A DNA stretch of 64,000 nucleotides from Rariglobus hedericola (GTDB lineage Bacteria; Verrucomicrobiota; Verrucomicrobiia; Opitutales; Opitutaceae), in assembly GCF_007559335.1 (NCBI RefSeq), contig NZ_VMBG01000001.1, forward strand, positions 1,488,001 through 1,552,000, written 5' to 3'. Every line of letters begins with the position of its first letter. Within the stretch, counting starts at the first letter, position 1. Positions 2,790 to 58,320 of the stretch are shown one piece after another. The translations under genes were made by a program, and so were the position numbers. The notes under the pieces were generated by a model that did not search any database, was not told the DNA's origin, and saw only the letters and a program-made list of their open reading frames with translations.

Positions 2790-3247
2790 CAGGTTTGTCG
2801 CCTCTGCGACCTCTGCGTTAAAGTCGGTTCCATCCGTCCTCTGTCTTCTGCCTCTATATTCCGTCCTCCGTATTGCTCCCTCGGCCCGCCCCGCCTTAAA
2901 CTTAATCTTGAGCCTTAATCTGTGGCGACCACGTCTCCTCTGCGACCTCCGCGATCTCTGTGTTTAAAAAACTTCGATTTCAGAATTCCTGATTTTTAAC
3001 GCAGGAGGCACAGAGACCGCAGAGATCGACCTTGTCCCACTTCTCAGGTTTCCAGTTTCAAGTCTCAGGTTTCACACCTCCCCCTGCCCTCTAAATTTAA
3101 TCTTCAGTCTTAATCTGTGACGAACTCCTCACCCTCTGCGCTCTCCGCGACCTCTGTGTTAAAGTCCGTTCCATCCGTCCTCTGTCTTCTGTCCCCTGTA
3201 TTGCTCCCTCACCCGCCCCCCCTTCCCCTTAAACTTTCGTCTTCATC
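2790..3247. repeat. Repeat-filled spacer
   Basis: The gap before the polysaccharide locus is packed with repeat units and no gene is supported. CTCTGCGACCTCTGCG-type arrays lie at about 2798-2820 and 2936-2965, with the opposite orientation at 3000-3025. TCCGTCCTCTGTCTTCTG-type units lie at about 2835-2880 and 3173-3205, a TCTCAGGTTTCCAGTTTC-type unit at 3042-3075, and CTTAAACTTAATC-type units at about 2894, 3092 and 3230. The order differs from other islands, so these look like mosaics and not one long repeat. Confidence 0.7.
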
Positions 3248-22701: not shown

Positions 22702-23427
22702 CTACCCTAGCAACTTGCCGATCATGGGTAACACCGTGTTGGCGCGCTTGTGCCACGTTTTGAGCTTATCGAGGCGGTTGGATAGCGTCTCTTGCTGGTC
22801 GGTCGCCGCAGTTGAAGACGAAAGTTTAAAATTAAGCGCCACCGCCGTCTTCTGTTCGCCGTCCTCCGTCCTCTGTCCTCTGTCATCCGTATCCCGTCTT
22901 CCCTCCTCCGCCTTCGCGAAGTCTTCAATGCGAAGCGTCTTAACCCGAGCACCCCACTCTTCCAGTTGCGGGTTCAGGCGTTCCTTCAAAAAACCACCGA
23001 CCAGGGCTCGCAGCTCCACCACCGGTTCAAAAAACTCACGTCGATCCTGGGCGATGACCACCGGCTTGATTGCCCCCACCGTGCGCAAGAACCGCAGCCC
23101 TTGGCTCACGGATCCTTTGCTCAATTTGAGACGATCGGCGATTTCCTGAAACGGTAGTGGCTCCGGTGTGGCAAACAGGAGCCCGTAAATTTCCCCCAGC
23201 GAGCGCGGTGCACCCAGTGCTTGGGACATCTGCACGAAAATCGCGATCACTTCACGTTCACCGATGGAGAGGGTTGAAACCTGAGACTTGAAACCTGACT
23301 CAGAAGGGTCGGTCGAAACAGCCGAACGGGTCCCGCCAAAAGGAGAGCGGGACGCCCGTCGCACGGCAGGATCGGCAACCGGCAGCGGCGAACGGCTATT
23401 GGACGTGGGGGTGGATCGTGACATCAA
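22702..23427 (-). CDS. MarR/GbsR-like transcriptional regulator carrying repeat-encoded segments
   Basis: A winged-helix regulator: SLGEIYGLLFATPEPLPFQE, IADRLKLSKGSVSQGLRFLR and TVGAIKPV form the DNA-binding domain at about residues 75-130. It is the first minus-strand gene upstream of the polysaccharide locus, so control of that locus is plausible but unproven. Three parts look foreign: residues near 45-54 (SGFKSQVSTL) come from a TCTCAGGTTTC-type repeat, residues near 176-192 (RRDTDDRGQRTEDGEQKT) from a GGACAGAGGAC-type repeat, and LNFKLSSST from an AAGTTTAAAATTAAG-type repeat. The start is uncertain, since the first 50 residues are low complexity. Confidence 0.75.
   Translation of the reverse strand: MMSRSTPTSNSRSPLPVADPAVRRASRSPFGGTRSAVSTDPSESGFKSQVSTLSIGEREVIAIFVQMSQALGAPRSLGEIYGLLFATPEPLPFQEIADRLKLSKGSVSQGLRFLRTVGAIKPVVIAQDRREFFEPVVELRALVGGFLKERLNPQLEEWGARVKTLRIEDFAKAEEGRRDTDDRGQRTEDGEQKTAVALNFKLSSSTAATDQQETLSNRLDKLKTWHKRANTVLPMIGKLLG
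22811..22911. repeat. Two repeat families inside the regulator gene
   Basis: 22811-22836 (GTTGAAGACGAAAGTTTAAA and on) belongs to the CTTAAACTTAA family. 22844-22911 (CGTCCTCCGTCCTCTGTCC and on) belongs to the GGACAGAGGAC family. Both are read in frame. A TCTCAGGTTTC-type unit lies in the same gene at 23274-23302. Confidence 0.7.
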
Positions 23428-24106
23428 TCGTGAACTACCAGCTAACTTCCCTCACTAAGCCGAGTGGTTTCATCGAGTTCAATTCAAAATGAACAAAATG
23501 AGTTTGGTTCATCAGGGCGAAGCGCGCGCACCCGGAATTCTTAACGCAGAGGGCGCGGAGAACGCGGAGGACTGAGGACGGAAGACGGAGTCACGGAAGA
23601 CTGAGGACAGACGGAGCCGAGAGGCGGAGATGGTCACATGCGAAGCATGTGGCCCTGGAGCGTGAGCGGAATGGGTGAGTGAGCGCGGGTGCCCTTTGGG
23701 CGGGCGAGGGAGCAATACGGAGGGACGGAACCGTTTATCAGGATTTTTAAACGCAGAGGTCGCCGAGAACGCAGAGGACAGATTTACGGAGAACTGAGAA
23801 GAGACAGAATAGAGGACAGAGCACGGAGGACGGACGAAGCTGTGAAACTTGAGGGCGGACGGATGGGTTGTCGGTCACATCCGATCTCTGCGGGCTCTGC
23901 GCTCTCTGCGTTAAACCGGTATTGAACTGGGAGTTTTAAATACAGCGATCTCCGCCTATCGGATTCGTCCGTGCTCAGTCATTCCGCACTCCGTGTCCTC
24001 TGTGCCCTCTGTGTTTAAAACTCCGATCTCAGGAGGCAGTCGTGCGCCGTTTCTCATTCAGGCCTCCCCGCCTCCGGTCTCAGGTTTCAGATTTCAGATT
24101 TCAGGT
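23428..24106. repeat. Large repeat island
   Basis: About 680 bases with no supported gene. CGCAGAG arrays lie at about 23541-23570 and 23750-23780, with the opposite orientation at 23884-23915 and 23996-24018, giving inverted pairs. GGACTGAGGACGG-type units lie at about 23567-23610 and 23815-23835. A short hairpin CACATGC/GCATGTG lies at 23636-23652. TCTCAGGTTTCAG and CTAG-type units (24078-24123) run into the next gene's stop codon. Apparent reading frames here are repeat artefacts. Confidence 0.7.
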
Positions 24107-24739
24107 TCAACTAGTTCCTAGTTTTCTAACGACCAGCTCTCCTCGTGAAATCGGCAACCGGAGCTGACGGCGAACCAGCAGGCTTAATAACAGCGGTTCA
24201 ATCAGGAGCAGCACCGTGGCCGCCATCCAAACATCCACTTTGAGAATCAGGTATCCAAAGATCCCCGCCGCTGCCGAACCGCAGAAAAAGAACGCTCCCC
24301 AGCCTCGAAACGCCATCAGGCAGGCGCCGGCCAAAACCACCACCAAGATGGCAACCTCGGGCGGCATTAAGCCAAAAACGATCCCCGCGGTGTAACCCAC
24401 GGGGGCAAACAAGACGCCATCATCGCGACGGGTGTGCATCTGCACCCCGACGGCCAACGCCAGCACCACAACGGTCGCGAGGAGCGGCAGATGACGCCAG
24501 AGCCCCGGCAGCGGCGGCTCGATCACCCAGGCATTGCGCAAAAGCCAGGAGCCAGCAAACGCCCGCAAAGGGTCCACCCAAAACCAAGGCTGCCGCCACC
24601 ACGCATCCGGCGCGTCCAGCCGGTCCTCGCGCAGGCGCTCATAATCACGCAGTCGCACATGATGGCCGTGAAGCCAATTATCCAACGGATAAAACACGAG
24701 CAGCAGTGCCGGAAGAAACAGGAGCCAGTTGATTTCCAT
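24107..24739 (-). CDS. Membrane protein of unknown function (paralogue of 25847-26461)
   Basis: About 210 residues with some six hydrophobic helices, starting MEINWLLFLPALLLVFYPLD. A soluble loop holds DAWWRQPWFWVDPLRAFAG, and later come FGLMPPEVAILVVVL and RRQLRLPISR. The same three landmarks in the same order occur in the plus-strand protein at 25847-26461, so the two are paralogues on either side of the RAYT gene. The ATG at 24739 is chosen by alignment with the paralogue's start. No function is known to me. Confidence 0.65.
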   Translation of the reverse strand: MEINWLLFLPALLLVFYPLDNWLHGHHVRLRDYERLREDRLDAPDAWWRQPWFWVDPLRAFAGSWLLRNAWVIEPPLPGLWRHLPLLATVVVLALAVGVQMHTRRDDGVLFAPVGYTAGIVFGLMPPEVAILVVVLAGACLMAFRGWGAFFFCGSAAAGIFGYLILKVDVWMAATVLLLIEPLLLSLLVRRQLRLPISRGELVVRKLGTS

Positions 24740-24931
24740 AATCGAATGAACAGTTACCTCCGTCCATAACAGCACATGCAATGCACAATGACTGCAACTA
24801 GGGTGTTTACCTGTGTAAAACCTGTATCCGCACCGTCACCACCCTACTGGGGTCTGGCCACTAGTCACTAGCCAGGGGGACAGAGGACCGAGAACGGAGG
24901 ACAGAGGACTGAGGACGGACGAGGTAGCCCC

Positions 24932-24956
24932 GTAGGGCCTCACCTTGTGTGAGGCC
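24932..24956 (-). repeat. REP element downstream of the RAYT gene
   Basis: Hairpin arms GGCCTCAC / GTGAGGCC with loop CTTGT at 24936-24956, preceded by GTAG on the plus strand. A GTAG tetranucleotide beside an imperfect palindrome is the known layout of REPs served by RAYT proteins. Its orientation is opposite to the copy at 24991-25015. The spacer before it (24850-24930) is made of GGACAGAGGAC-type units. Confidence 0.75.
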
Positions 24957-24990
24957 GCTCCGTCCTTCGTGCCTCGGCACAACCGATCAA

Positions 24991-25015
24991 GGCCTGACGC
25001 AAGATCAGGCCCTAC
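24991..25015 (-). repeat. REP element overlapping the RAYT stop codon
   Basis: Arms GGCCTGA / TCAGGCC around CGCAAGA, followed by CCTAC. Read on the minus strand it begins GTAGGGCC, and the TAG of that GTAG (25014-25012) is the stop codon of the RAYT gene. Confidence 0.8.
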
Positions 25016-25563
25016 GTCGAAATTTGGATGCAGGCGTCCACGTCCTTGACGTGATCCAGCCATTCAACCGAAGGCGCTCCATCCGTGCTCAACCCCTCCT
25101 CAAACCGCCAGCGCGCGTCCGCACCACTCAACCATCCCATCCACCGGGTGTTCACGGCCATGAGCCCAGCCCGATACGGATTCATGAAGATATAAAATGC
25201 GTAATCCTCCGCGTCTTCGTCGGCGCGCAAGCGATGCTCAAACACATTCGCTTGCCAGCGCCAAACCGCATCCGCGATACGAGCACGCGACTTCAATTTC
25301 GCGATCACGCGATCAAGCGGTAAACGCTCACCCAACGTAAACAAGATGTGCACATGATCCGGCATAACCGTAGCCGCGAGCAGCCGCCAGTCACCCGCCA
25401 GCGTCAACTCGTTGATCCCTGCCAAAACTCGTTTCAATGGTGCATCCCCCGCCAGCACGGATTCACGACCCGCGACACACGCCGTGATAAAATACCGCGC
25501 ACCCGGAACTGAAACGCGACCGCTCCGAAGACGTTCAGTTTGGCGCACAGGCAATTCGGCCAT
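25012..25563 (-). CDS. REP-associated tyrosine transposase (RAYT, Y1/HUH superfamily)
   Basis: RAYTs are single-copy relatives of IS200 transposases that nick and join REP palindromes. Counting from the alternative TTG at 25572, the HUH pair is H73/H75 in TVMPDHVHILF, and the likely catalytic tyrosine is Y127 in YIFMNPYRAGL. The N-terminal half carries GARYFITACVAGRESVL, usual for the family. The ATG at 25563 is preferred. The gene is enclosed by REP hairpins with GTAG tags on both sides, and its stop codon is part of one of them. A length of about 183 residues is normal. Confidence 0.93.
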   Translation of the reverse strand: MAELPVRQTERLRSGRVSVPGARYFITACVAGRESVLAGDAPLKRVLAGINELTLAGDWRLLAATVMPDHVHILFTLGERLPLDRVIAKLKSRARIADAVWRWQANVFEHRLRADEDAEDYAFYIFMNPYRAGLMAVNTRWMGWLSGADARWRFEEGLSTDGAPSVEWLDHVKDVDACIQIST

Positions 25564-25582
25564 GATCGCCAAACTACGTCGC

Positions 25583-25771
25583 GGCTCGACACAAGGTCGA
25601 GCCCTACCTTTTCAGCCGACCTGCCCCGAACACGGCCTGACGCAAGGTCAGGCCCTACACGCACCGCAGTGCTTGACCGTAGGGCCTCACCTCGCGTGAG
25701 GCCGTTCCGTCATTGTGCCTCCGCACGGCGCCCCCACCCATCACAGCCTGTGACGCAAGATCAGGCCCTAC
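25583..25771. repeat. Cluster of four REP elements upstream of the RAYT gene
   Basis: Hairpins at 25583-25603 (GGCTCGAC / GTCGAGCC), 25634-25654 (GGCCTGAC / GTCAGGCC), 25683-25703 (GGCCTCAC / GTGAGGCC) and a decayed copy near 25746-25766. Loops are ACAAG, GCAAG and CTCGC for the first three. The first, second and fourth are followed by CCTAC and the third is preceded by GTAGG, so orientations alternate as in composite REP clusters. The arms differ in compensating pairs, which shows that the hairpin is what is conserved. Confidence 0.8.
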
Positions 25772-25846
25772 ATCGAACAGCACCCGCGCCTCTCCGATCA
25801 TAATTGATCAGAAGCTTTGGCTTCCTTATGCCATTTTCGGACAAAC

Positions 25847-26479: not shown

Positions 26480-26757
26480 AAAACCTGAAACCTGAGGGAT
26501 GAAACCTGAAGGTGACAGCGGACGGAAAGACTGAGGACAGCGTAACAGAGGACTGACGGAACCAAGAGAAGTCGGAATTTTTAACACAGAGAGCGCAGAG
26601 GACACGGAGGACGGCCTAAAACCAAAAGGCAGATAGACGGGTAGCAGACAGCACTAATTGCTAGCAACGAGTCACTAGCAGCTATCCGATCTCTGTGGTC
26701 TCTGCGACCTCTGCGTTAAAACTCCGCTTTTGTTCGCGGTTGGTGATTTGAACACGC
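26480..26757. repeat. Repeat-filled spacer
   Basis: No gene is seen. Units in order: AACCTGAAACCTGAGGG (26483-26510), GGACGGAAAGACTGAGGACAG (26518-26545), a TTAACACAGAGAGCGCAGAGG array (26579-26610), CTAG-type units (26655-26685), and a CTCTGTGGTCTCTGCGACC array (26692-26720). The last array is in the opposite orientation to that at 26579 and can pair with it. Confidence 0.7.
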
Positions 26758-27867: not shown

Positions 27868-27884
27868 AATTCGAAATCATCGGA

Positions 27885-28184
27885 CGGATGGATGACTGAG
27901 GACAGAGGACAGAGAACGGAGAACGGATGACTGAGGACTGAGGACGGAGGACGGACGGATTGTTAACACGGAGACGCCGACGGCGCGGATGAAGACTCAA
28001 GATTAAGTTTAAGGATGATGGGAAGGTAGCAGTCAGAACCTAATGGCTATCCGATCCGATCTCTGCGCTCTCTGCGTTAAACCGGTATTTAAGTCGGAGA
28101 TTTAAACACAGAGGTCGCAGAGAACACAGAGGATGCAGAGAGCGGAATGGACGATCATCCTTAAACTTAATCTTCCCCCTTAAA
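27885..28184. repeat. Repeat-filled spacer upstream of the TupA-like gene
   Basis: No gene is seen. GGACAGAGGACAGAGAACGG-type units fill 27893-27955. A CTCTGCGCTCTCTGCG array (28060-28080) and an ACACAGAGGTCGCAGAG array (28106-28135) face each other around a short AACCGG-containing loop and can form a hairpin. CTTAAACTTAATC units lie at about 28000 and 28162. Confidence 0.7.
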
Positions 28185-31233: not shown

Positions 31234-32505
31234 CTAAGTCGAGACTCCGCCCTCCAATGATACCCGCAGCGTCGCGCGATTGACCTTCCCTTGCGCGTTG
31301 CGGGGCCAGCGGTCGAGGGCGACATAACGCTTGGGGTGCTTGAAAGCCGCCAGGTGACTCGCAAGCACGCGCGCCACCGCCTCCAAATCATGCGGAGCAA
31401 ACTCCGCCGGATAACACGCAACCACGACTTCGCCCCACTGCGTATCGGACACGCCGATCACGGCCACATCGGTAAACTGACCCGTGCCACGCAACACCCG
31501 CTCCACCTCCGCCGGATCCACTTTTTCGCCTCCCGTGATGATCAACGCATCGCGCCGTCCGCTCACCTGCAGGCTGCCGCTTTCGTCCATCCGCCCGAGA
31601 TCCTCCGTAAGCCAGATATCTCCCGTGCGCAGCTCGGGCCAGTATCCACGAAACAACGACGCGCCGGCGATCCCGATGCGGCCCTCCGCATCAAACGTGA
31701 TTCGCGCATGCGGCATCACCGCGCCATTGCCACGCGCACCGGATAAAAACTCCTCCGGCTTCAAGGCCGCGATCATCGCCGCCGTCTCGGTCATGCCATA
31801 AGAAAACGCCAGCGGCAGCCGCGCCTTCGCCCCGGCCTCGATCAACTCCGGCCACGCCGGGGCGCCACCGATGAACACCGCCCGAAACCCGCGCAACCAG
31901 TCCTCGGCTTCGGCATCGCCCAGCAGGCGTTGCAACTGGGTCGGCACCAGCGACAGGAACCAATCGCCATCATCCGCGGGCAACGCCGGACGCTCCCCCG
32001 ACTCCACAGCTTTCCAACTGCACGGCAGGTAACTCCCACCCGTCAAAACCGTGCGCATCCACGCCATGAATCCACTTACATGATACAGCGGGAGCAGCCC
32101 GACCACGTTGACCTTCGTCACGCCGAAGTGGGCGCAAAATCCGTTCACCGCGGCCGAGATGGTTTGCTCATCGTGCCGCGCCAGCTTGAGCCGACCCGAC
32201 GAACCGCCGGTCGGAATACACAGCCAGCCGGAAGTCGCAGCAGGCAGACCTGAAACTTGAGATGCGAGACCTGAAGACGCACCGGCGGAGCGCGCCACCG
32301 GTTGAGCAGACGTGAGCGCGTTGAATTGTGCCCGCTCACTTTCGCCCCACGAGGGATCAGCCAAAAACACCGTGCCGCCGGCCGCGACCGCATCGGAAAA
32401 CGATTCGATAAACACGGCCGGCTCGCGTTCCTCCACGATGACATCGCGCATCTCCGCCACGACCGGTGGCATGCCCAGCAGACGGATCAGGTCAGCGCGT
32501 TCCAT
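31234..32505 (-). CDS. menE: o-Succinylbenzoate-CoA ligase
   Basis: Adenylate-forming enzyme that activates o-succinylbenzoate for menaquinone synthesis. Seen: WLCIPTGGSSGRLKLARHDE (phosphate loop), FSYGMTETAAMIAAL, GDIWLTEDLGRMDESG, GRRDALIITGGEKVDPAEVE and the final PRNAQGKVNRATL with the catalytic lysine. The start overlaps menC by 19 bases. A TCTCAGGTTTC-type repeat (32246-32277) in the N-terminal part encodes SSGLASQVSGLPA just before the phosphate loop. 423 residues. Confidence 0.9.
   Translation of the reverse strand: MERADLIRLLGMPPVVAEMRDVIVEEREPAVFIESFSDAVAAGGTVFLADPSWGESERAQFNALTSAQPVARSAGASSGLASQVSGLPAATSGWLCIPTGGSSGRLKLARHDEQTISAAVNGFCAHFGVTKVNVVGLLPLYHVSGFMAWMRTVLTGGSYLPCSWKAVESGERPALPADDGDWFLSLVPTQLQRLLGDAEAEDWLRGFRAVFIGGAPAWPELIEAGAKARLPLAFSYGMTETAAMIAALKPEEFLSGARGNGAVMPHARITFDAEGRIGIAGASLFRGYWPELRTGDIWLTEDLGRMDESGSLQVSGRRDALIITGGEKVDPAEVERVLRGTGQFTDVAVIGVSDTQWGEVVVACYPAEFAPHDLEAVARVLASHLAAFKHPKRYVALDRWPRNAQGKVNRATLRVSLEGGVST
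32246..32277. repeat. TCTCAGGTTTC-type repeat inside menE
   Basis: AGACCTGAAACTTGAGATGC and the rest of the segment form two imperfect inverted copies of the family unit. It is read in frame and gives the peptide ASQVSGL, close to peptides encoded by the same family in mfd and the regulator gene. Confidence 0.65.
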
Positions 32506-36109: not shown

Positions 36110-36113
36110 TTTT

Positions 36114-36185
36114 TTTAAACACAGAGGCCGCAGAGGACACGGAGGTATTCAATCCTCTGTGCGCTCTGCGGCCTCTGCGTTTAAA
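36114..36185. repeat. Long inverted CAGAG repeat between guaB and purA
   Basis: 36114-36144 (TTTAAACACAGAGGCCGCAG and on) is nearly the reverse complement of 36153-36185 (ending GCGGCCTCTGCGTTTAAA), with a loop of about eight bases. The RNA would form a hairpin of some 30 pairs just after the guaB stop, without a U-tract. It may end or protect the guaB message. Confidence 0.75.
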
Positions 36186-36235
36186 ATTCCGCGATTGAAC
36201 CGCGCCGCCCCGCCCGCTTTCGTTGGCGGTTTGCC

Positions 36236-38128: not shown

Positions 38129-39436
38129 TCAAAAATCCTGCAGCCGGTTCTCGATCGCACCACGTTCAGGCTGGATGCGGGCCATGACTTCGCCGAGCAA
38201 ATAAATCGAGCCCGTCACCACCACCGTATCGTCGGGCCCGCCCACGGTGCAGGTCTGCGCATCGGGAAACACTCCGGCGACGGTCGCTCGGCTCACGCGC
38301 CCCGTGAACGTTTTCGGGATCAACGCCTCCAGTTCCTCGAAACCGCTCGCCCGTGACTGCTGCGGCATCACCAGGTGAATCTCCGCCGCGCAGCGACTGA
38401 TCGTCTCCAGCAACGGTCGCGCCCGCGCCGCGCCCAACACGCCCGTCACCACCACCGGCTTGCGTCCCGTCTCCACCACCAGAGCGCGTAATTGATTCTC
38501 CAATACGCCGGCACCTTCCGGATTGTGCGACGCATCTAGGATCAAATCCCGCCCACCGATCTTCGCCCGCTGCCAGCGCCCGGGCCAGCGAGCCGCGTGC
38601 AGGCCGCGCTTGATGACATCCTCGGTCAGTTTCCAACGCGTATCGAAACAGCGTGCCACCAACACCGCAGTCGCGGCATTCCAGCGCTGATAATCCCCCT
38701 CGAATGCCGCCGTCGGATATCCCTCGATAGCTTCGCCGAACACGTCGCGCACCGAAATCACCGGAGCGCCCTGCTCCGCCGCCACCCGGCGAATCACCGC
38801 CTCCGCTTCCGCCGGCAGCCGTCCGATCACCACCGGTTTTCCCGGCTTGATGATGCCCGCCTTCTCGGCAGCGATTTGCGCGATCGTGTCGCCCAGCATG
38901 TCGCAATGATCGAGTCCGATCGACGTGATCACCGCCACCTCCGGATCAACCACATTGGTCGCATCAAGGCGTCCGCCGAGACCGGTCTCGATGATGGCGA
39001 TATCGCAACGCTTCCGGGCGAATTGGAGAAACGCCATCGCGGTCATGAACTCGAAAAAGCTCGGATGATCGTCCGGACTTCCATGGCTCACCGCCTCGGC
39101 GACCGGCAGCAACTCCTGCGTAAACGCCACGATCTCCACCTCGCTCAAAATCTCCCGCGCCACCTGCACGCGTTCGCCGAGTTTCACCAGATGCGGCGAC
39201 GTGTAGAGGCCGGTGCGCCAGCCCGCGGTCGAAAAAATCGCCTCCAGCATCGCTGCGACGGAGCCCTTGCCGTTGGTGCCGGCCAGGTGAATGACCGGCG
39301 TGGCGAGCTCCGGATGCCCGATGCCCGCAACGAGCAGGCGCATCCGGTCGATGCCGAACTTCACTCCCTTCGCCTTGAGCGAAAAAAGATAATCCTGCGT
39401 CGCGTTGTAACCAGTGATTCCGGAATCAACGTTCAA
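38129..39436 (-). CDS. folC: Dihydrofolate synthase/folylpolyglutamate synthase
   Basis: Mur-ligase family enzyme adding glutamate to folates. Seen: VIHLAGTNGKGSVAAMLEAI (P-loop), LYTSPHLVKLGERVQV, DIAIIETGLGGRLDATNVVD, SIGLDHCDMLGDTIAQIAAE, KAGIIKPGKPVVI and LILDASHNPEGAGVL. The first codon (39436) seems to be TTG and lies inside the TTGAACGTTGA repeat, so the initiation region is repeat-derived. About 435 residues, normal length. Confidence 0.93.
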   Translation of the reverse strand: MNVDSGITGYNATQDYLFSLKAKGVKFGIDRMRLLVAGIGHPELATPVIHLAGTNGKGSVAAMLEAIFSTAGWRTGLYTSPHLVKLGERVQVAREILSEVEIVAFTQELLPVAEAVSHGSPDDHPSFFEFMTAMAFLQFARKRCDIAIIETGLGGRLDATNVVDPEVAVITSIGLDHCDMLGDTIAQIAAEKAGIIKPGKPVVIGRLPAEAEAVIRRVAAEQGAPVISVRDVFGEAIEGYPTAAFEGDYQRWNAATAVLVARCFDTRWKLTEDVIKRGLHAARWPGRWQRAKIGGRDLILDASHNPEGAGVLENQLRALVVETGRKPVVVTGVLGAARARPLLETISRCAAEIHLVMPQQSRASGFEELEALIPKTFTGRVSRATVAGVFPDAQTCTVGGPDDTVVVTGSIYLLGEVMARIQPERGAIENRLQDF

Positions 39437-39462
39437 CGTTCAACCTCCAACATCCAACGCTC
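39427..39462. repeat. Left arm of the TTGAACGTTGA inverted pair
   Basis: CAACGTTCAACGTTCAACC and following CTCCAACATCCAACGCTC. It is the reverse complement type of the array at 39848-39887; the two enclose the four-helix-bundle gene. It also supplies the likely start codon of folC. Confidence 0.75.
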
Positions 39463-39473
39463 ATAATGAGCCG

Positions 39474-39848
39474 TCATTTTGTGCCTTTCTTGCGGGCGGT
39501 TTTAAGACTCGAAAAGAAAATACGAATCAGCTCTTCGGTTTCCGCCAACAAAGGCAGCACGATATCCGGCTTGGGGATCAAGGGAACCCTTTGGATCAAT
39601 CGCAGCCAACGACGGGTCTCTCTCAACTCCTTAAGACATATGCTCAGCTTATGAATAAAATCCGCGTTGGATTCGGCCGCTTGCGCCTCACCATGATTAG
39701 GTAAGACTGCAGTTCCTGAACGCAGCATTTGGTTGGCGACATGCGTTCCAGCTGGCGAACGGCGAATCGACTCCGCCAGACGCACGATATTCGCCACGTA
39801 GTCTAACAGGCGGTCCTCCAAATCAAAACGCGACGTCTTCTCATCCAT
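39474..39848 (-). CDS. Four-helix-bundle protein (S23/Avd-like)
   Basis: A 124-residue helical protein of the family first seen in 23S rRNA intervening sequences. Typical features are DLEDRLLDYVANIVRLAESI, GTHVANQMLRSGTAVLPNHG with EAQAAES, and DFIHKLSICLKELRETRRWL followed by RLI. It has no known enzymatic activity; relatives act as nucleic-acid-associated proteins and as accessory proteins in retroelements. It is placed between folC and accD, exactly between two inverted repeat arms, which suggests a mobile or hitchhiking gene. Confidence 0.85.
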   Translation of the reverse strand: MDEKTSRFDLEDRLLDYVANIVRLAESIRRSPAGTHVANQMLRSGTAVLPNHGEAQAAESNADFIHKLSICLKELRETRRWLRLIQRVPLIPKPDIVLPLLAETEELIRIFFSSLKTARKKGTK

Positions 39849-39887
39849 TGAACGTTGAGTGTTGAACGTTGGATGTTGGACGTTGAA
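39848..39887. repeat. Right arm of the TTGAACGTTGA inverted pair
   Basis: TTGAACGTTGAGTGTTGAAC followed by GTTGGATGTTGGACGTTGAA. It begins at the start codon of the four-helix-bundle gene. A second inverted pair of the same family, without a gene inside, lies at 42735-42833. Confidence 0.75.
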
Positions 39888-39910
39888 TCCGGACCCGAGG
39901 CATCAAGCCT

Positions 39911-42720: not shown

Positions 42721-42734
42721 GAGTAGAGGAATCT

Positions 42735-42833
42735 CAACGTCCAACATCCAACGCCCAACGTTCAACATCCAAGGAGAGAATGTTCGGAGCGTTCATTGAA
42801 AGTTGGAGGTTCGATGTTGAGTGTTGAACGTTG
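42735..42833. repeat. Gene-less TTGAACGTTGA inverted pair
   Basis: 42735-42772 (CAACGTCCAACATCCAACGC and on) and 42796-42833 (TTGAAAGTTGGAGGTTCGAT and on) mirror each other across a 23-base centre. The same family flanks the four-helix-bundle gene at 39427-39887. It separates ruvX from manC. Confidence 0.75.
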
Positions 42834-42854
42834 CACAGACCGTGGCGCCGCAGC

Positions 42855-51484: not shown

Positions 51485-51558
51485 GGCGCGATAGCCAAGT
51501 GGTAAGGCCGAGCTCTGCAAAAGCTCTACCGCCGGTTCGATTCCGGCTCGCGCCTCCA
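51485..51558 (+). tRNA. tRNA-Cys (GCA anticodon)
   Basis: The acceptor stem GGCGCGA pairs with TCGCGCC, the discriminator is T as expected for cysteine tRNA, and CCA is encoded (51556-51558). The anticodon stem-loop GAGCT CTGCAAA AGCTC gives anticodon GCA. The T arm is CCGGTTCGATTCCGG. No integrase or attachment duplication is seen next to it. Confidence 0.96.
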
Positions 51559-51565
51559 AATTTTA

Positions 51566-51597
51566 AAACCGCCGGTCCCTCGACCGGCGGTTTTTCT
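51566..51597 (+). terminator. Rho-independent terminator after tRNA-Cys
   Basis: AAACCGCCGGT and ACCGGCGGTTT pair around CCCTCG and are followed by TTTTTCTTT. Confidence 0.93.
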
Positions 51598-51640
51598 TTG
51601 CCCCCCGCCCATTCGTCATTGGTCATGGGGCATTACCAAA

Positions 51641-52420
51641 ATGTCCTCCCTCGTCTTCACCATCGCCAACCAGAAGGGCGGCGTCGGCAAAACCACCACC
51701 GCCGTCAATCTCGCCGCCGCGCTCGCCGAGAAGAAAATCCACACCCTGCTGATCGATCTCGACCCCCAGGCCAACGCCACCAGCGCCATCGGTGTTGAGA
51801 AAATCCCCGGTCGCTCCCTCTACGGCCCGCTCAACGGTGAAGGGACCGCGCTCGAGATGGTTGTCCCCACTCAATACGAGCATCTCGCACTCATTCCGTC
51901 CGAGGAAGATCTCGCGGCCGCCGAAATCGAGATCGCCCAGTCCGAAAACTACCTCGCCAAGCTCCGCACCGTCCTCGAGCCGCTCAAAACCTCGGGTGGC
52001 TTTAAAGTCATCATCATCGATTGCCCGCCTTCCATGGGCATGCTGTCGATGAACAGTCTCGCCGCCGCCGACTACCTGCTCATCGCGCTCCAGTGCGAAT
52101 ACATGGCCCTTGAGGGTCTCGGGCAGATTCTGCGCAACCTCGAGCGCATCAAAAACGCCGGCATCAACGGCGGTCTCGAACTCGGTGGCGTCGTCATGAC
52201 GATGTTCGATATCCGCACCAATCTCTCGCGCCAAGTCGTCGAGGAAGTGAAGAAGCACCTGCCCGAAAAAATCTTCAACACGGTCATCCCCCGCACCATT
52301 CGCCTCAGCGAGGCACCCAGCTTCGGCAAGACGATCTTCGACTACGATCCGCTTTCCCCTGGAGCCACCGCCTACAAGAACCTCGCCAAAGAGGTCATCG
52401 CCCGCTTCGGCCTTAAGTAA
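51641..52420 (+). CDS. ParA/Soj-family partition ATPase
   Basis: Deviant Walker [19 protein letters not shown] following [20 protein letters not shown] and [20 protein letters not shown] are the ParA signatures. 259 residues with no N-terminal HTH, as in chromosomal Soj. No parB follows, since an ABC permease gene comes next, so a partition pair is not complete here. Acts on the nucleoid or as a positioning ATPase. Confidence 0.93.
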
Positions 52421-54766: not shown

Positions 54767-54798
54767 TCGGCGCACTTGCAGCCCGTTCCGCTGTCCAT

Positions 54799-54862
54799 TC
54801 CGTCCGTCTTCCGTCTTCCGTCTTCCGTCTTCCGTCCTCGGTTCTCTGTCCTCCGTCCTCGT
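54799..54862. repeat. GGACAGAGGAC-type repeat between rnc and mfd
   Basis: GTCCGTCTTCCGTCTTCCGT and further CGTCTTCCGTCC, TCTGTCCTCCGTCC units form four tandem 7-base steps followed by degenerate ones. Confidence 0.7.
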
Positions 54863-54873
54863 CAGCGTCGTCC

Positions 54874-57800
54874 ATGTCCGTCACCGCCCACCTCACCCGC
54901 ATCAAGCTCACCGGTGTCTGCCCGCCCGCCCGCGGTGCCGTCATCGCCGAGCTCACGCGCGGACACCCTGCCCCCGTGTGGCTGGTCATCACCGAGGATC
55001 TTAAACACGCCGAGCAACTCGCCGAGGACATCTCGTTTTTTCATCGTTCCGCCGGTGGAAATCCCGCCGCCGTCGAGACCCTCATCTTTCCCGAGTCGAT
55101 GCCCGACAGCCGCGATATGCGCGAAGCCTTTGCCGCCTCCGCCGATCGCACCACCGTCCTCAGCCGGCTCCGCTCCGCCCGCTCGATCACTCAGGTTTCA
55201 GGTTTCAGTCCTCAGGTTTCTCTCGTAGTCCTGACGACGCCCGCCGCCCTCCTCCAACCCGTTCCCGCCCTCGAAGCGTTTTCCAACCGTGAAATCACGC
55301 TTAAGCGCGGACAATCCCAACCCTTCAAAGCCCTGCTCGAAACGCTCCACGGCCTCGACTACGACAGCGAAGCCGTCTGCGAATCCCCGGGCCACTACGC
55401 GATCCGCGGCGGCATCATCGACGTTTACCCTATCACCGCCACTCAGCCCTACCGCCTCGATTTTTTCGGAGACGAAATCGAAGACATCCGCGCCTTCGAC
55501 CCCGTCACCCAACGTTCCGGCGAACAGATCGACACGATCACACTCTCCGCCTCACCGCGCCTCAAACTCGACGCCTCCAAAACCGGCCTCGCCGACTACC
55601 TCTCGCCTCTCACCCAGCTTGTCTTCGTCGAGCCCGCCTCCCTCGACGAGGAATTCTCCTCCTTCGCGCGCGAGGGCTTCGACGGACTCTCCCCGCTACT
55701 CCTCAAAGCCTCCGGCGCCTTCGGCCTCGCCGACATCGACGAAGCCGCCGCGCTCTTCGACGGCGAGGGCGTCACCGAGATCACTTGGGACACCGAGAGC
55801 CTTGTTCACCACCGCACCTACCCCTCCGACGACCTCGTCGCCCAAGAACGCCTCTCCGCCGAAGAAGACGCCCGCCGCACGTTTCTCACCCAACTTGTCG
55901 CCTGGAAAAAAGACGGTTACGGCCTCGCCTTCGTCGTCTCCAAGGAAGGCGAAGAACAACGCGTCAAAGAAATCCTCGCCGAGGACCCGCGCTTCAAAGG
56001 CCTGCAACCCCTCTGGGTCCGCGGCACGCTGAACGAAGGTTTCCGCTGCACCTACCGCGCCGGCGCCGGGCTCCTTTGGTCCACGCTCCCCAAGCGCAAA
56101 CTCGGCGAGATCGGCGGACTCGTTCTCGTCACCGAAACCGAACTCTTCGGCCGCCAGCGCACCCGCCGCGTCACCGGCACGCAACAACGCGCCCTCGTCA
56201 CCCGCGCCCAGGTCGACCAGCTCCTCGACTTCTCCGAACTCGTCGAAGGCGATTTCGTCGTCCACCTCCAGCACGGAATCGCCCTCTACCGCGGTCTCAC
56301 GAAACTGGATACACGTGACGGACAACGCGAAGTCATCTCCCTCGAATTCGACGACGGCGTCACCCTCCACGTCCCGCTCCAAGAATCGCACCTCATCAGC
56401 CGCTACGTCGGCCTCGGCAAAGCCAAGCCCCAACTCGGCAAAGTCGGCTCCGGCCGCTGGGAAAAAACCCGCCAGGCCGCCGAACGCGCCACCATCGACC
56501 TCGCCGCCGACCTCCTCAAAATCCAAGCCCAGCGCGAAGCCCAACCCGGCCACGCTTTCCCGCCCGATAACGACTGGCAGAAAGAATTCGAAGGCTCGTT
56601 CCCCTTCACCGAAACCAAGGACCAGCTCACCGCCATCGAGGCCACCAAAGCCGACCTCGAGCGCGCCCGCCCGATGGACCGCCTCATCTGCGGCGACGTC
56701 GGTTTCGGCAAAACCGAGGTCGCCATCCGTGCCGCCTTCAAAGTCGTCCAAGGCGGCAAGCAGGTCGCCATCCTCGTCCCCACCACGATCCTCGCGCAGC
56801 AACACCTCAACACGTTCCGCGAACGCATGGCCGGCTACCCTATCGCCGTCGAGATGATCAGCCGCTTCCGCACCAAGGGCGAAGTCAACCGTATCCTCGC
56901 CGCCACCTCCTCGGGCCAGGTCGATATCCTCATCGGCACTCACGCCCTCCTCACCGACCGCGTCGCCTTCAAAGACCTCGGCTTGGTGATAGTGGACGAA
57001 GAGCAACGCTTCGGCGTGAAACACAAAGAGCGCCTCAAAGCCATGCGCACCTCCGTGGACATTCTCTCCATGTCCGCCACGCCCATCCCGCGCACACTCT
57101 ACATGGCCATGACCGGCGCTCGCGACATGTCCGTCATCGAAACCGCGCCCGTCAACCGCCACCCGATCCAGACCATCGTCAAAACCTACGACGAAAAACT
57201 CGTCGTGGACGCCATCCGCCACGAGCTCCGCCGCGGCGGACAAGTCTTTTACCTCCACAACCGCGTGCAGACGATCAACCTCGTCGCCGCCCGCCTCCGC
57301 GAGATGTTGCCCGACGTCACCATCGGCGTCGGCCACGGCCAGATGGACGAACACGAACTCGAGCGCGAGATGACCGACTTCGTCGCCGGCAAACACCAGG
57401 TCCTCGTCTGCACCACGATCATCGAAACCGGCCTCGATATCCCCAACTGCAACACAATCATCATCGAAGGCGCGGACCGCTTCGGCCTCTCGCAACTCTA
57501 CCAACTCCGCGGACGCGTCGGCCGCTTCAAACACCAGGCCTACGCCTACCTCCTCCTCCACCGCCACACGCGTCTGGTCGAGATCACCCGCGAACGCCTC
57601 AACGCCCTGCGCACCCACAACCAACTCGGCGCAGGTTTCCGCATCGCCATGCGCGACCTAGAACTCCGAGGCGCCGGCAACCTCCTCGGCTCCCAACAAA
57701 GCGGCCACATCATCGGCGTCGGCTTCGAACTCTACTGCCAACTCCTCCGCCAATCCGTCGCCCGCTTGAAAGGCGACAAACACGCCGCGGCCATCCGCGC

Positions 57801-58320
57801 CAACGTGAAGCTCGATTTCGTCTTCGTCGGCGAATCCGCCGCTTCCGGCCTTCAAGTCTCAGGTCTCAACCCTCAGGTTTCTCAGTCCTCCTACCAAGCG
57901 ATCAAAGCCGCCGAGCAATCCGCCGACGGAGCCGTCGAGGTCGCTAAAATCCAGGCCCGCATTCCGTCCACTTACATCACCGAAACGCGTCTCCGCATCG
58001 ACTTTTACCGCCGCCTGGCGATGGCCGCCGGCGCGCTCCAGCTCAAAGAAATCGAAGCCGATCTCCATGACCGCTTCGGCAAATTCGGCGACGAAGTCCG
58101 CGCGTTGCTGCTCATCACCGAGATCCGCATCCGCGCCGAGCAAAAGGGCATCATCAACGTCGAGACGGAATCATCCCGCCTCAAGTGCCTCCGAGGTTCC
58201 GGCGTCCGCGACGACTACGTCATGCTCGCTGGGTCCCGTTTCCCTCGCCTAGTCGCCCCGAAGGCCCTGGCCCGCCTTAAGGAAATCCTCACCTTCCTCG
58301 GCAACCTGCCGTCGGCCTAA
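54874..58320 (+). CDS. mfd: Transcription-repair coupling factor
   Basis: Removes stalled RNA polymerase and recruits UvrA. Order of domains in 1148 residues: UvrB-like module (about 1-330), RNA-polymerase-interacting domain (DFVVHLQHGIALYRGLTKLD near 470), helicase with GDVGFGKTEVAIRAAFK, VDEEQRFGVKHKERLKAM, SATPIPRTLYMAMTGARDMS, IETGLDIPNCNTIIIEGADR and GRVGRFKHQAYAYLL, and the C-terminal TRCF domain. Two short stretches (near residues 107-117 and 993-1004) are encoded by TCTCAGGTTTC-type repeats and look like in-frame inserts in surface loops. Confidence 0.96.
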   Translation: MSVTAHLTRIKLTGVCPPARGAVIAELTRGHPAPVWLVITEDLKHAEQLAEDISFFHRSAGGNPAAVETLIFPESMPDSRDMREAFAASADRTTVLSRLRSARSITQVSGFSPQVSLVVLTTPAALLQPVPALEAFSNREITLKRGQSQPFKALLETLHGLDYDSEAVCESPGHYAIRGGIIDVYPITATQPYRLDFFGDEIEDIRAFDPVTQRSGEQIDTITLSASPRLKLDASKTGLADYLSPLTQLVFVEPASLDEEFSSFAREGFDGLSPLLLKASGAFGLADIDEAAALFDGEGVTEITWDTESLVHHRTYPSDDLVAQERLSAEEDARRTFLTQLVAWKKDGYGLAFVVSKEGEEQRVKEILAEDPRFKGLQPLWVRGTLNEGFRCTYRAGAGLLWSTLPKRKLGEIGGLVLVTETELFGRQRTRRVTGTQQRALVTRAQVDQLLDFSELVEGDFVVHLQHGIALYRGLTKLDTRDGQREVISLEFDDGVTLHVPLQESHLISRYVGLGKAKPQLGKVGSGRWEKTRQAAERATIDLAADLLKIQAQREAQPGHAFPPDNDWQKEFEGSFPFTETKDQLTAIEATKADLERARPMDRLICGDVGFGKTEVAIRAAFKVVQGGKQVAILVPTTILAQQHLNTFRERMAGYPIAVEMISRFRTKGEVNRILAATSSGQVDILIGTHALLTDRVAFKDLGLVIVDEEQRFGVKHKERLKAMRTSVDILSMSATPIPRTLYMAMTGARDMSVIETAPVNRHPIQTIVKTYDEKLVVDAIRHELRRGGQVFYLHNRVQTINLVAARLREMLPDVTIGVGHGQMDEHELEREMTDFVAGKHQVLVCTTIIETGLDIPNCNTIIIEGADRFGLSQLYQLRGRVGRFKHQAYAYLLLHRHTRLVEITRERLNALRTHNQLGAGFRIAMRDLELRGAGNLLGSQQSGHIIGVGFELYCQLLRQSVARLKGDKHAAAIRANVKLDFVFVGESAASGLQVSGLNPQVSQSSYQAIKAAEQSADGAVEVAKIQARIPSTYITETRLRIDFYRRLAMAAGALQLKEIEADLHDRFGKFGDEVRALLLITEIRIRAEQKGIINVETESSRLKCLRGSGVRDDYVMLAGSRFPRLVAPKALARLKEILTFLGNLPSA
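55191..55221. repeat. First TCTCAGGTTTC-type repeat in mfd
   Basis: TCAGGTTTCAGGTTTCAGTC followed by CTCAGGTTTCT, in frame, encoding TQVSGFSPQVSL between SRLRSARS and the conserved VVLTTPAALLQ. Confidence 0.8.
57851..57885. repeat. Second TCTCAGGTTTC-type repeat in mfd
   Basis: TTCAAGTCTCAGGTCTCAAC followed by CCTCAGGTTTCTCAG, in frame, encoding LQVSGLNPQVSQ. The peptide matches the first insert at V-S-G-x-x-P-Q-V-S, although the host positions are 880 residues apart. Confidence 0.8.

Follow-up and report, generated by a model that had tools for sequence, protein, structure and literature searches.

How does one short peptide come to be encoded twice in a single DNA-repair gene? The question is raised by mfd in the window analysed here, the whole stretch of 64,000 nucleotides at positions 1488001-1552000 of contig 1 of genome G000 (4.15 Mb; nearest named relatives Opitutaceae, Verrucomicrobiota). 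The initial annotation had described one repeat family read in frame at two sites of this gene and had likened it to the palindromic elements of Rickettsia. The observation is confirmed: both peptides (TQVSGFSPQVS and LQVSGLNPQVS) are encoded at the places reported (Table 1), and the same repeat is found in a menE-like gene and in a regulator gene. The interpretation is partly supported. Both mfd sites do share one family, with TCARGTY as its unit, but each consists of degenerate 7-base units in tandem and is not a fixed insert. The reading preferred here, given roughly two chances in three, is that each mfd insert is a short array of dispersed degenerate TCARGTY heptamers, and that such arrays were seeded into harmless sites, filtered, and exchanged between families over time.

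Two Mfd loops and their occupants across the genus

Site 1 directly precedes the segment VVLTTPAALLQP, part of the UvrB-like region, and site 2 follows the helicase part and precedes the C-terminal TRCF domain; sequence alignment places both in probable loops, as it does the UvrA sites described below. Mfd was aligned for the genus and its relatives, with further fragments added. Twelve genus genomes have the protein, and the thirteenth, G011, gave no real Mfd match. Heptamers occupy site 1 in 10 of the 12 and belong to four families: TCARGTY in G000, G010, G001 and G009, CTCTCAN in G004, CTCAACN in G007, and GAGCTNN/NNAGCTC in G002, G008, G012 and G006. They are absent there from G003, G005 and nine rows of other genera. 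The Mfd tree built without the loops has G000 and G010 as sisters (100/99) and unites the other ten genomes in a clade that excludes G003 and G005 (94/96). A periodicity score of at least 10 of 14 is reached at site 1 by 8 of the 10 scored genus rows (G006 and G007 being assessed by eye), by none of the 9 other-genus rows and by 3 of 76 control values, these three falling in two other-genus rows. The claim holds that length-variable loops tolerate in-frame copies of a mostly intergenic repeat, and orthologues without the repeat differ in sequence there. The same peptides were not seen in repeat-free genomes: G010, G001 and G009, which share the site-1 family, all have family matches, although the G010 matches number only 3 genome-wide, one being mfd itself (reversed control, 1).

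The recurrence could suggest that the peptide QVSGxxPQVS binds something and has been spread by selection. Mfd encodes it at two sites, and G010 and G001 retain similar peptides at site 1, as does G009 in altered form. Yet the same loop reads SLELRAK-type, QLSALTSQL or QLSTLNAQL in other species, no common function is known for the menE-like gene and the regulator, which share the peptide, and the repeat in this frame yields it for free; selection for the peptide is thus very improbable.

The assignment of site 2 depends on its family match (one mismatch) because periodicity alone is weak: the G000 score is 10 of 14, a value that 2 of 80 control values reach too, and 3 of 20 rows attain it (G000 with 10, G006 with 12, one other genus with 10). 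Taken alone, site 2 could be due to chance, at a few per cent. Its loop window measures 63 nt in G000, 54 nt in the sister G010 and 63 nt in G001; being 9 nt longer than the former and equal to the latter, it fits replacement as much as insertion. A clean mobile element with target-site duplications is therefore not supported, and at the one clear intergenic insertion no duplication was recognised either. Several other species have short palindromes at site 2 instead, and in G005 one of them resembles a GTAG-tagged repetitive extragenic palindrome (REP), with one mismatch to the pattern. The mfd leader carries an array of yet another family, a position taken in the sister G010 by TTTGGNN heptamers and a GTAG-REP. 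Upstream of mfd in G002 (L087) stands a hexamer hairpin of CTCGTT/CTCCTA units, so that periods other than 7 exist.

Could the inserts be two in-frame copies of a mobile palindromic element like those of Rickettsia (RPE) or Wolbachia (WPE)? The in-frame, loop-located, dispersed and species-specific occurrence would suit it, some heptamer elements are true hairpins, and the site-1 arrays of G002 and G006 have inverted arms by eye. The outcome is indeed alike, as initially proposed, but the arrays span about 30 nt and not about 150 bp, their units are degenerate and of several families, neither fixed ends nor a target duplication were recognised, and mfd insert 1, the only one of the two that was folded, gave no fold (z 0, as did the mfd leader array). 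Such an element is hence quite improbable.

A second DNA-repair protein bears on the preferred reading. A 1955-residue double UvrA-like protein (UvrA2; UvrA_inter, UvrA_DNA-bind, ABC_tran; L114:9190-15057), beside an ordinary UvrA-like gene, turned up in an evenly spaced genome sample and was not selected beforehand. In G000 it harbors seven in-frame arrays of three families, each family at two or three loops. Close matches exist in 12 of the 13 genus genomes, some of them fragmentary, G001 (77% complete) having only ordinary-UvrA-like ones. The loops were compared by eye over ten orthologous rows, covering nine other genomes: CATTGGT units occur in G010, G004, G002 and G012, CTCAACTCTCA in G003 and G004, AGCTCNN in G002 and G012, and GTAG-REPs in G011, G010 and G009 (with both tag and single stem-loop at site 2 of G011), the loop being plain elsewhere. 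A score of 11 of 14 at lag 7 is reached by 22 of 53 species-loops, versus 1 of 212 at lags 5, 8, 10 and 11; leaving out G000, which had served to choose the loops, the figures are 15 of 46 and, for the control values, 1 of 184. Inserts follow the repertoire of their own genome: where UvrA2 holds CATTGGT, in four genomes, there are 22-153 genomic CATTGRN matches, and five of the 13 genomes have none. At UvrA2 site 6 of G009 (L148), an in-frame octamer array (CCCTTCGG-type) scores 12 of 14 at lag 8.

Heptamer families of the genome and their turnover

The periodicity scan of G000 covered 61 stretches and 1,264,000 bases (7,500 N), with a self-matching cutoff of 20 of 28. Only lags divisible by neither 3 nor 7 (4, 5, 8, 10, 11, 13, 16, 17, 19, 20) were used as controls, because multiples of three reflect codons. 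Lag 7 yields 41 places, one of which is a run of N, leaving 40 arrays in 1.26 Mb; the control lags, in the above order and less the N run, yield 2, 2, 0, 2, 1, 2, 1, 0, 1 and 0. Multiples of three give 20-35 places less the N run, as expected from codons, and lag 14 gives 23. The 40 arrays are a lower bound, since the mfd arrays (31-32 nt) are too short for the threshold, and they include one A+T-rich run (window 9842) that was not accepted as a family member. A sample of the sister G010 (799,687 bases) has 24 places at lag 7 versus 0, 1, 4, 3, 0, 2, 1, 0, 2 and 0 at the same controls. In the window, the word CTCAGGTTTC is found 8 times against 0.08 expected from shuffles. Chance, that is, fast-evolving low-complexity loops resembling repeats, could draw on the variability of both Mfd loops in all Opitutaceae rows, on the borderline site 2 and on the three site-1 control values in two other-genus rows; in view of the lag-7 excess and the word count it is scarcely credible.

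Unit profiles distinguish six families in G000, namely GGACRGA, GTAGYGR, GTTGAGN, GTTGRRY, GAGTGAY and TCARGTY. The grouping into about six is our own: related families overlap and one array may be counted under several. Genes and starts were called with our own codon-model script, unvalidated, which called 89% of the sample coding; by these calls, five genes contain 12 of the 40 arrays at a depth of 60 nt or more, 4 arrays sit at the 5' edge of a gene and 24 are outside genes. TCARGTY has 14 matches in G000 at about ten loci, five of them in the window (control, 1). CATTGRN matches, which are overlapping matches and not loci, number 153 in G010, 106 in G002, 102 in G004, 40 in G009, 22 in G012, 7 in G006, 2 in G001, 1 in G005 and 0 in G000, G003, G007, G008 and G011, the control pattern giving 0 throughout. 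The REP pattern has 62 matches in G010, 50 in G009, 45 in G011, 26 in G007, 11 in G005 and 0-8 in the other eight (controls 0-4). GGACNGA triplets occur in 7 of 15 genomes within the family, versus 1 for the reversed control; across the order they occur in 21 of 177, a wider spread that is not established because the reversed control matches 14 of the 177, with 30 and 28 matches in G014 and G133.

Copies of one family cluster in G002, where 6 pairs lie within 5 kb against 0.8 expected and 0 of 2000 random placements have as many, as counted from a position list that is possibly slightly short and with lengths assumed for two of the three contigs; TCARGTY clustering in G000 is biased, as the finding originated in this window. 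These distributions bear on independent local slippage, by which a microsatellite would arise separately in every loop and no copies would pass between loci. A period of 7 fits polymerase slippage, and two GTTGRRY arrays shared with G010 change little; but within one genome the same family turns up at unlinked loci while relatives lack it, and the G000 UvrA2 repeats each of its three families at several loops, so that purely local slippage is unlikely.

For turnover between the sisters, 59 G000 arrays were considered, of which 21 (19 positions once hairpin arms are merged) have both flanks in the compared G010 sequence, 14 positions lying in loci picked for their genes and 5 in sampled stretches. 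Classed by eye, 3 positions hold the same array in G010, 1 the same family, 11-12 another repeat and 3-4 none. Leaders were compared by an objective score over 81 orthologous pairs obtained from 780 genes tried (lags 6-9, cutoff 14 of 21): arrays are present in both species in 9, in G000 only in 5, in G010 only in 5 and in neither in 62 (Fisher p 1e-5; control lags 1 and 1).

Leaders, reading strand and other features

The pyrimidine strand is in sense in 20 of 20 GGACRGA, GTAGYGR and GTTGAGN arrays that lie within 20 nt of a called gene start or overlap it, and the three GTTGRRY arrays at gene starts have mixed orientation. Leaders of G000 are pyrimidine-rich in general: GGAG/GAGG/AGGA motifs occur in 26 of 521 leaders without arrays and 0 of 15 with arrays (sampled stretches, own gene caller), and translation starts look largely independent of Shine-Dalgarno motifs. 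The leader orientation likely reflects that purine-rich repeats would mimic ribosome-binding sites. Of 16 arrays inside genes, 12 would acquire stops in two or more frames if inverted, which explains the strand of most coding arrays. The stop filter fails to account for that of GGACRGA arrays, because six of the seven tested have no stop when inverted and the seventh has one in a single frame.

The four coding places initially listed all stand, but more genes are involved: in-frame arrays also occur in UvrA2, an SNF2-type helicase (two arrays), a methyltransferase and DsbD, and the regulator, which has only a sub-threshold HTH_20 match, contains a second array of another family. Four N-terminal arrays encode apparent signal peptides, e.g., MNASILRALFSVLCLLSSVVLA (by eye); two of these proteins, L203 and L206, are related, so these are not four independent cases. 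Among orthologues of the solute-binding protein L127 (ten rows, by eye), three species encode the same stretch by a 9-base TTTCGTGTN-type repeat. Of six sequences folded, four form hairpins with a pair of inverted arms (z -6.3, -7.1, -9.1 and -3.5). The hairpin at 42732-42836 is missing in 6 of 7 aligned genus genomes, and the seventh, G001, has an unrelated insert.

Table 1. Position of mfd, its in-frame arrays and further repeat arrays in the window
Feature	Position	Strand	Remarks
mfd	54874..58320	+	1148 aa; Pfam UvrB_inter, CarD_TRCF_RID, DEAD, Helicase_C, TRCF; PDB profile match to E. coli Mfd
Mfd site 1, in-frame TCARGTY array	55190..55220	+	DNA CTCAGGTTTCAGGTTTCAGTCCTCAGGTTTC, peptide TQVSGFSPQVSL; whole-genome family match
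Mfd site 2, in-frame TCARGTY array	57851..57882	+	DNA TTCAAGTCTCAGGTCTCAACCCTCAGGTTTCT, peptide LQVSGLNPQVSQ; family match, one mismatch
TCTTCCG/TCCTCTG (GGACRGA family) array, mfd leader	54794..54862		ends 11 nt before mfd start
In-frame TCARGTY array, menE-like gene	32245..32278	-	TCAGGTC-TCGCATC-TCAAGTT-TCAGGTC, SSGLASQVSGL; gene 31234-32505, Pfam AMP-binding enzyme
In-frame TCARGTY array, regulator	23273..23303	-	TCAGGTT-TCAAGTC-TCAGGTT-TCAACCC, SGFKSQVSTL; gene 22702-23427; family match
Second in-frame array in regulator, GGACRGA	22845..22905	-	purine strand in sense (exception)
Intergenic TCARGTY array	3042..3076	+	word and family match
TCARGTY array, 3' end of minus-strand gene	24063..24114	+	word, family match, periodicity scan
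GGACNGA array upstream of minus-strand gene	24874..24928	+	periodicity and leader scans
GGACNGA array ~18 nt upstream of minus-strand gene start	27883..27963	+	periodicity and leader scans
GTTGRRY array common to sister G010	39416..39465	-	periodicity scan, comparison
GTTGRRY array common to sister G010	39845..39889	+	core 40/40 identical; periodicity scan, comparison
Hairpin, two inverted GTTGRRY arms	42732..42836	-	comparison, folding

Other elements accompany these arrays. The eighth copy of CTCAGGTTTC (26487-26496, minus strand) lies in no array placed here. A hairpin of 9-base units (ACACAGAGG-type) directly follows a stop codon at 36113-36186, and this 9-mer family recurs in the window. 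A worn CATTGGT-like array occupies 51551-51640, before a gene at 51641, even though G000 yields no match to the pattern of this family. At 24930-25777, a Y1 transposase open reading frame (ORF) of the REP-associated tyrosine transposase (RAYT) type (25012-25572, minus) is flanked by several GTAGGG-tagged palindromes, as would be expected at a RAYT-REP locus.

Spread of the arrays and comparison with known systems

In the preferred reading, copies would seed where additional bases do no damage, namely in spacers between cistrons, in the few bases ahead of start codons and in variable loops. Survival would require a kept frame, the lack of stops and, before start codons, the lack of a purine-rich mimic of a ribosome-binding site, selection acting only as a filter on frame, stops, loop tolerance and leader composition. 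The peptide would be a by-product, a linker rich in Ser, Gln, Leu and Pro. Over time, a position would often stay occupied while its repeat is swapped for a family abundant in that species. The copies most likely move by replication slippage and template switching between arrays, as suggested by the clustering of same-family copies and by those that form two inverted arms. No heptamer-moving enzyme was found. RAYT was considered as the mover: Y1_Tnp is present in 11 of 13 genomes and gave no hit in G006 and G012, which have Mfd heptamers, an absence that is not firm since these drafts are 87% and 93% complete. A likeness of GTTGRRY to the attC core heptamer was dropped, as the other families do not fit.

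Several results weigh against this reading. A 200-kb sample of G002 has no lag-7 excess (2 places) despite the 106 CATTGRN matches. The leader association weakens with stricter cuts: in the order both, G000 only, G010 only and neither, threshold 15 gives 4, 4, 5 and 68 (p 0.004) and threshold 16 gives 2, 4, 5 and 70 (p 0.08), and for lag 7 alone p is 0.0005 at 14 and non-significant at 15 or 16. The two shared GTTGRRY arrays are identical at 70 of 71 bases, compared with 600 of 731 in their flanks; since they outconserve these flanks, drift and slippage alone would not yield them. The worn CATTGGT-like leader in G000 indicates that some turnover may be decay and not exchange, one sister pair was compared in depth, and neither a template-switch junction nor a donor copy was seen, nor a target duplication when the UvrA2 loops, Mfd site 2 and the 42732-42836 hairpin were inspected by eye. 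A stronger proposal, that a genome-wide process writes arrays into preferred positions, periodically rewrites them with the dominant family, leaving related species with shared positions but different sequences, and supplies conserved proteins with ever-changing loop segments, signal peptides and leaders, is possible but rather doubtful.

Bacterial heptamer repeats have so far been known mainly from intergenic sites, without a known way of spreading. Here, different families at the same positions of DNA-repair genes in sister species allow turnover to be followed position by position, and non-coding repeats appear to feed new pieces into proteins. If the preferred reading is true, it provides a measurable route from non-coding repeats to protein segments, apparent signal peptides among them, as well as a natural map of insertion-tolerant loops in Mfd and the double UvrA. 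A literature search whose coverage excluded most subscription journals yielded no publication that describes heptamer arrays in Verrucomicrobia or in-frame arrays of this kind in Mfd or UvrA.

The cyanobacterial short tandemly repeated repetitive (STRR) sequences are short tandem degenerate heptamers of several families that sometimes fold in RNA genes. To our knowledge, in-frame loops with family exchange have not been described for them, and they differ in phylum and in their unit sequences. GTAG-tagged REPs are single stem-loops with a tag, linked to RAYT (Y1) transposases. The heptamer arrays lack the GTAG tag, and tag and stem-loop are both absent from the G000 mfd inserts; the likeness lies in the sites, as REPs fill UvrA2 loops in G009, G010 and G011 and an Mfd loop in G005.

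RPEs are elements of about 150 bp in protein-coding genes (PMC10969869), and WPE-like pieces stand in frame in addA, addB and priA (PMC4224334). Dispersed repeats in frame in house-keeping genes are common to both situations, the hosts here being mfd, the menE-like gene, the regulator, UvrA2, the SNF2 helicase, the methyltransferase and DsbD. The differences are about four or more degenerate heptamers, several families and another phylum, and mfd insert 1 is no foldable palindrome of about 150 bp. TAACTGA heptamers, known from Beggiatoaceae, Cyanobacteria and Bacteroidetes, are described as direct repeats located immediately upstream of start codons, some of them in ORFs, in a setting where ribosome binding sites are reportedly rare; period-7 polymerase slippage was proposed by Mrazek et al., as cited there (PMC4679880). 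Here too, tandem 7-nt units exceed chance (G000 and G010) and are mainly noncoding and before start codons. Whereas TAACTGA is one exact unit with related heptamers rare, about six degenerate families occur in a single genome here, and none of the six G000 unit profiles equals TAACTGA (compared by eye). TAACTGA cases within ORFs are reported mostly at protein ends, while the present ones are in probable internal loops of conserved proteins. The heptamer arrays are thus neither a fixed palindrome nor a single exact unit: they are not a palindromic element of the Rickettsia type, but their outcome is alike.

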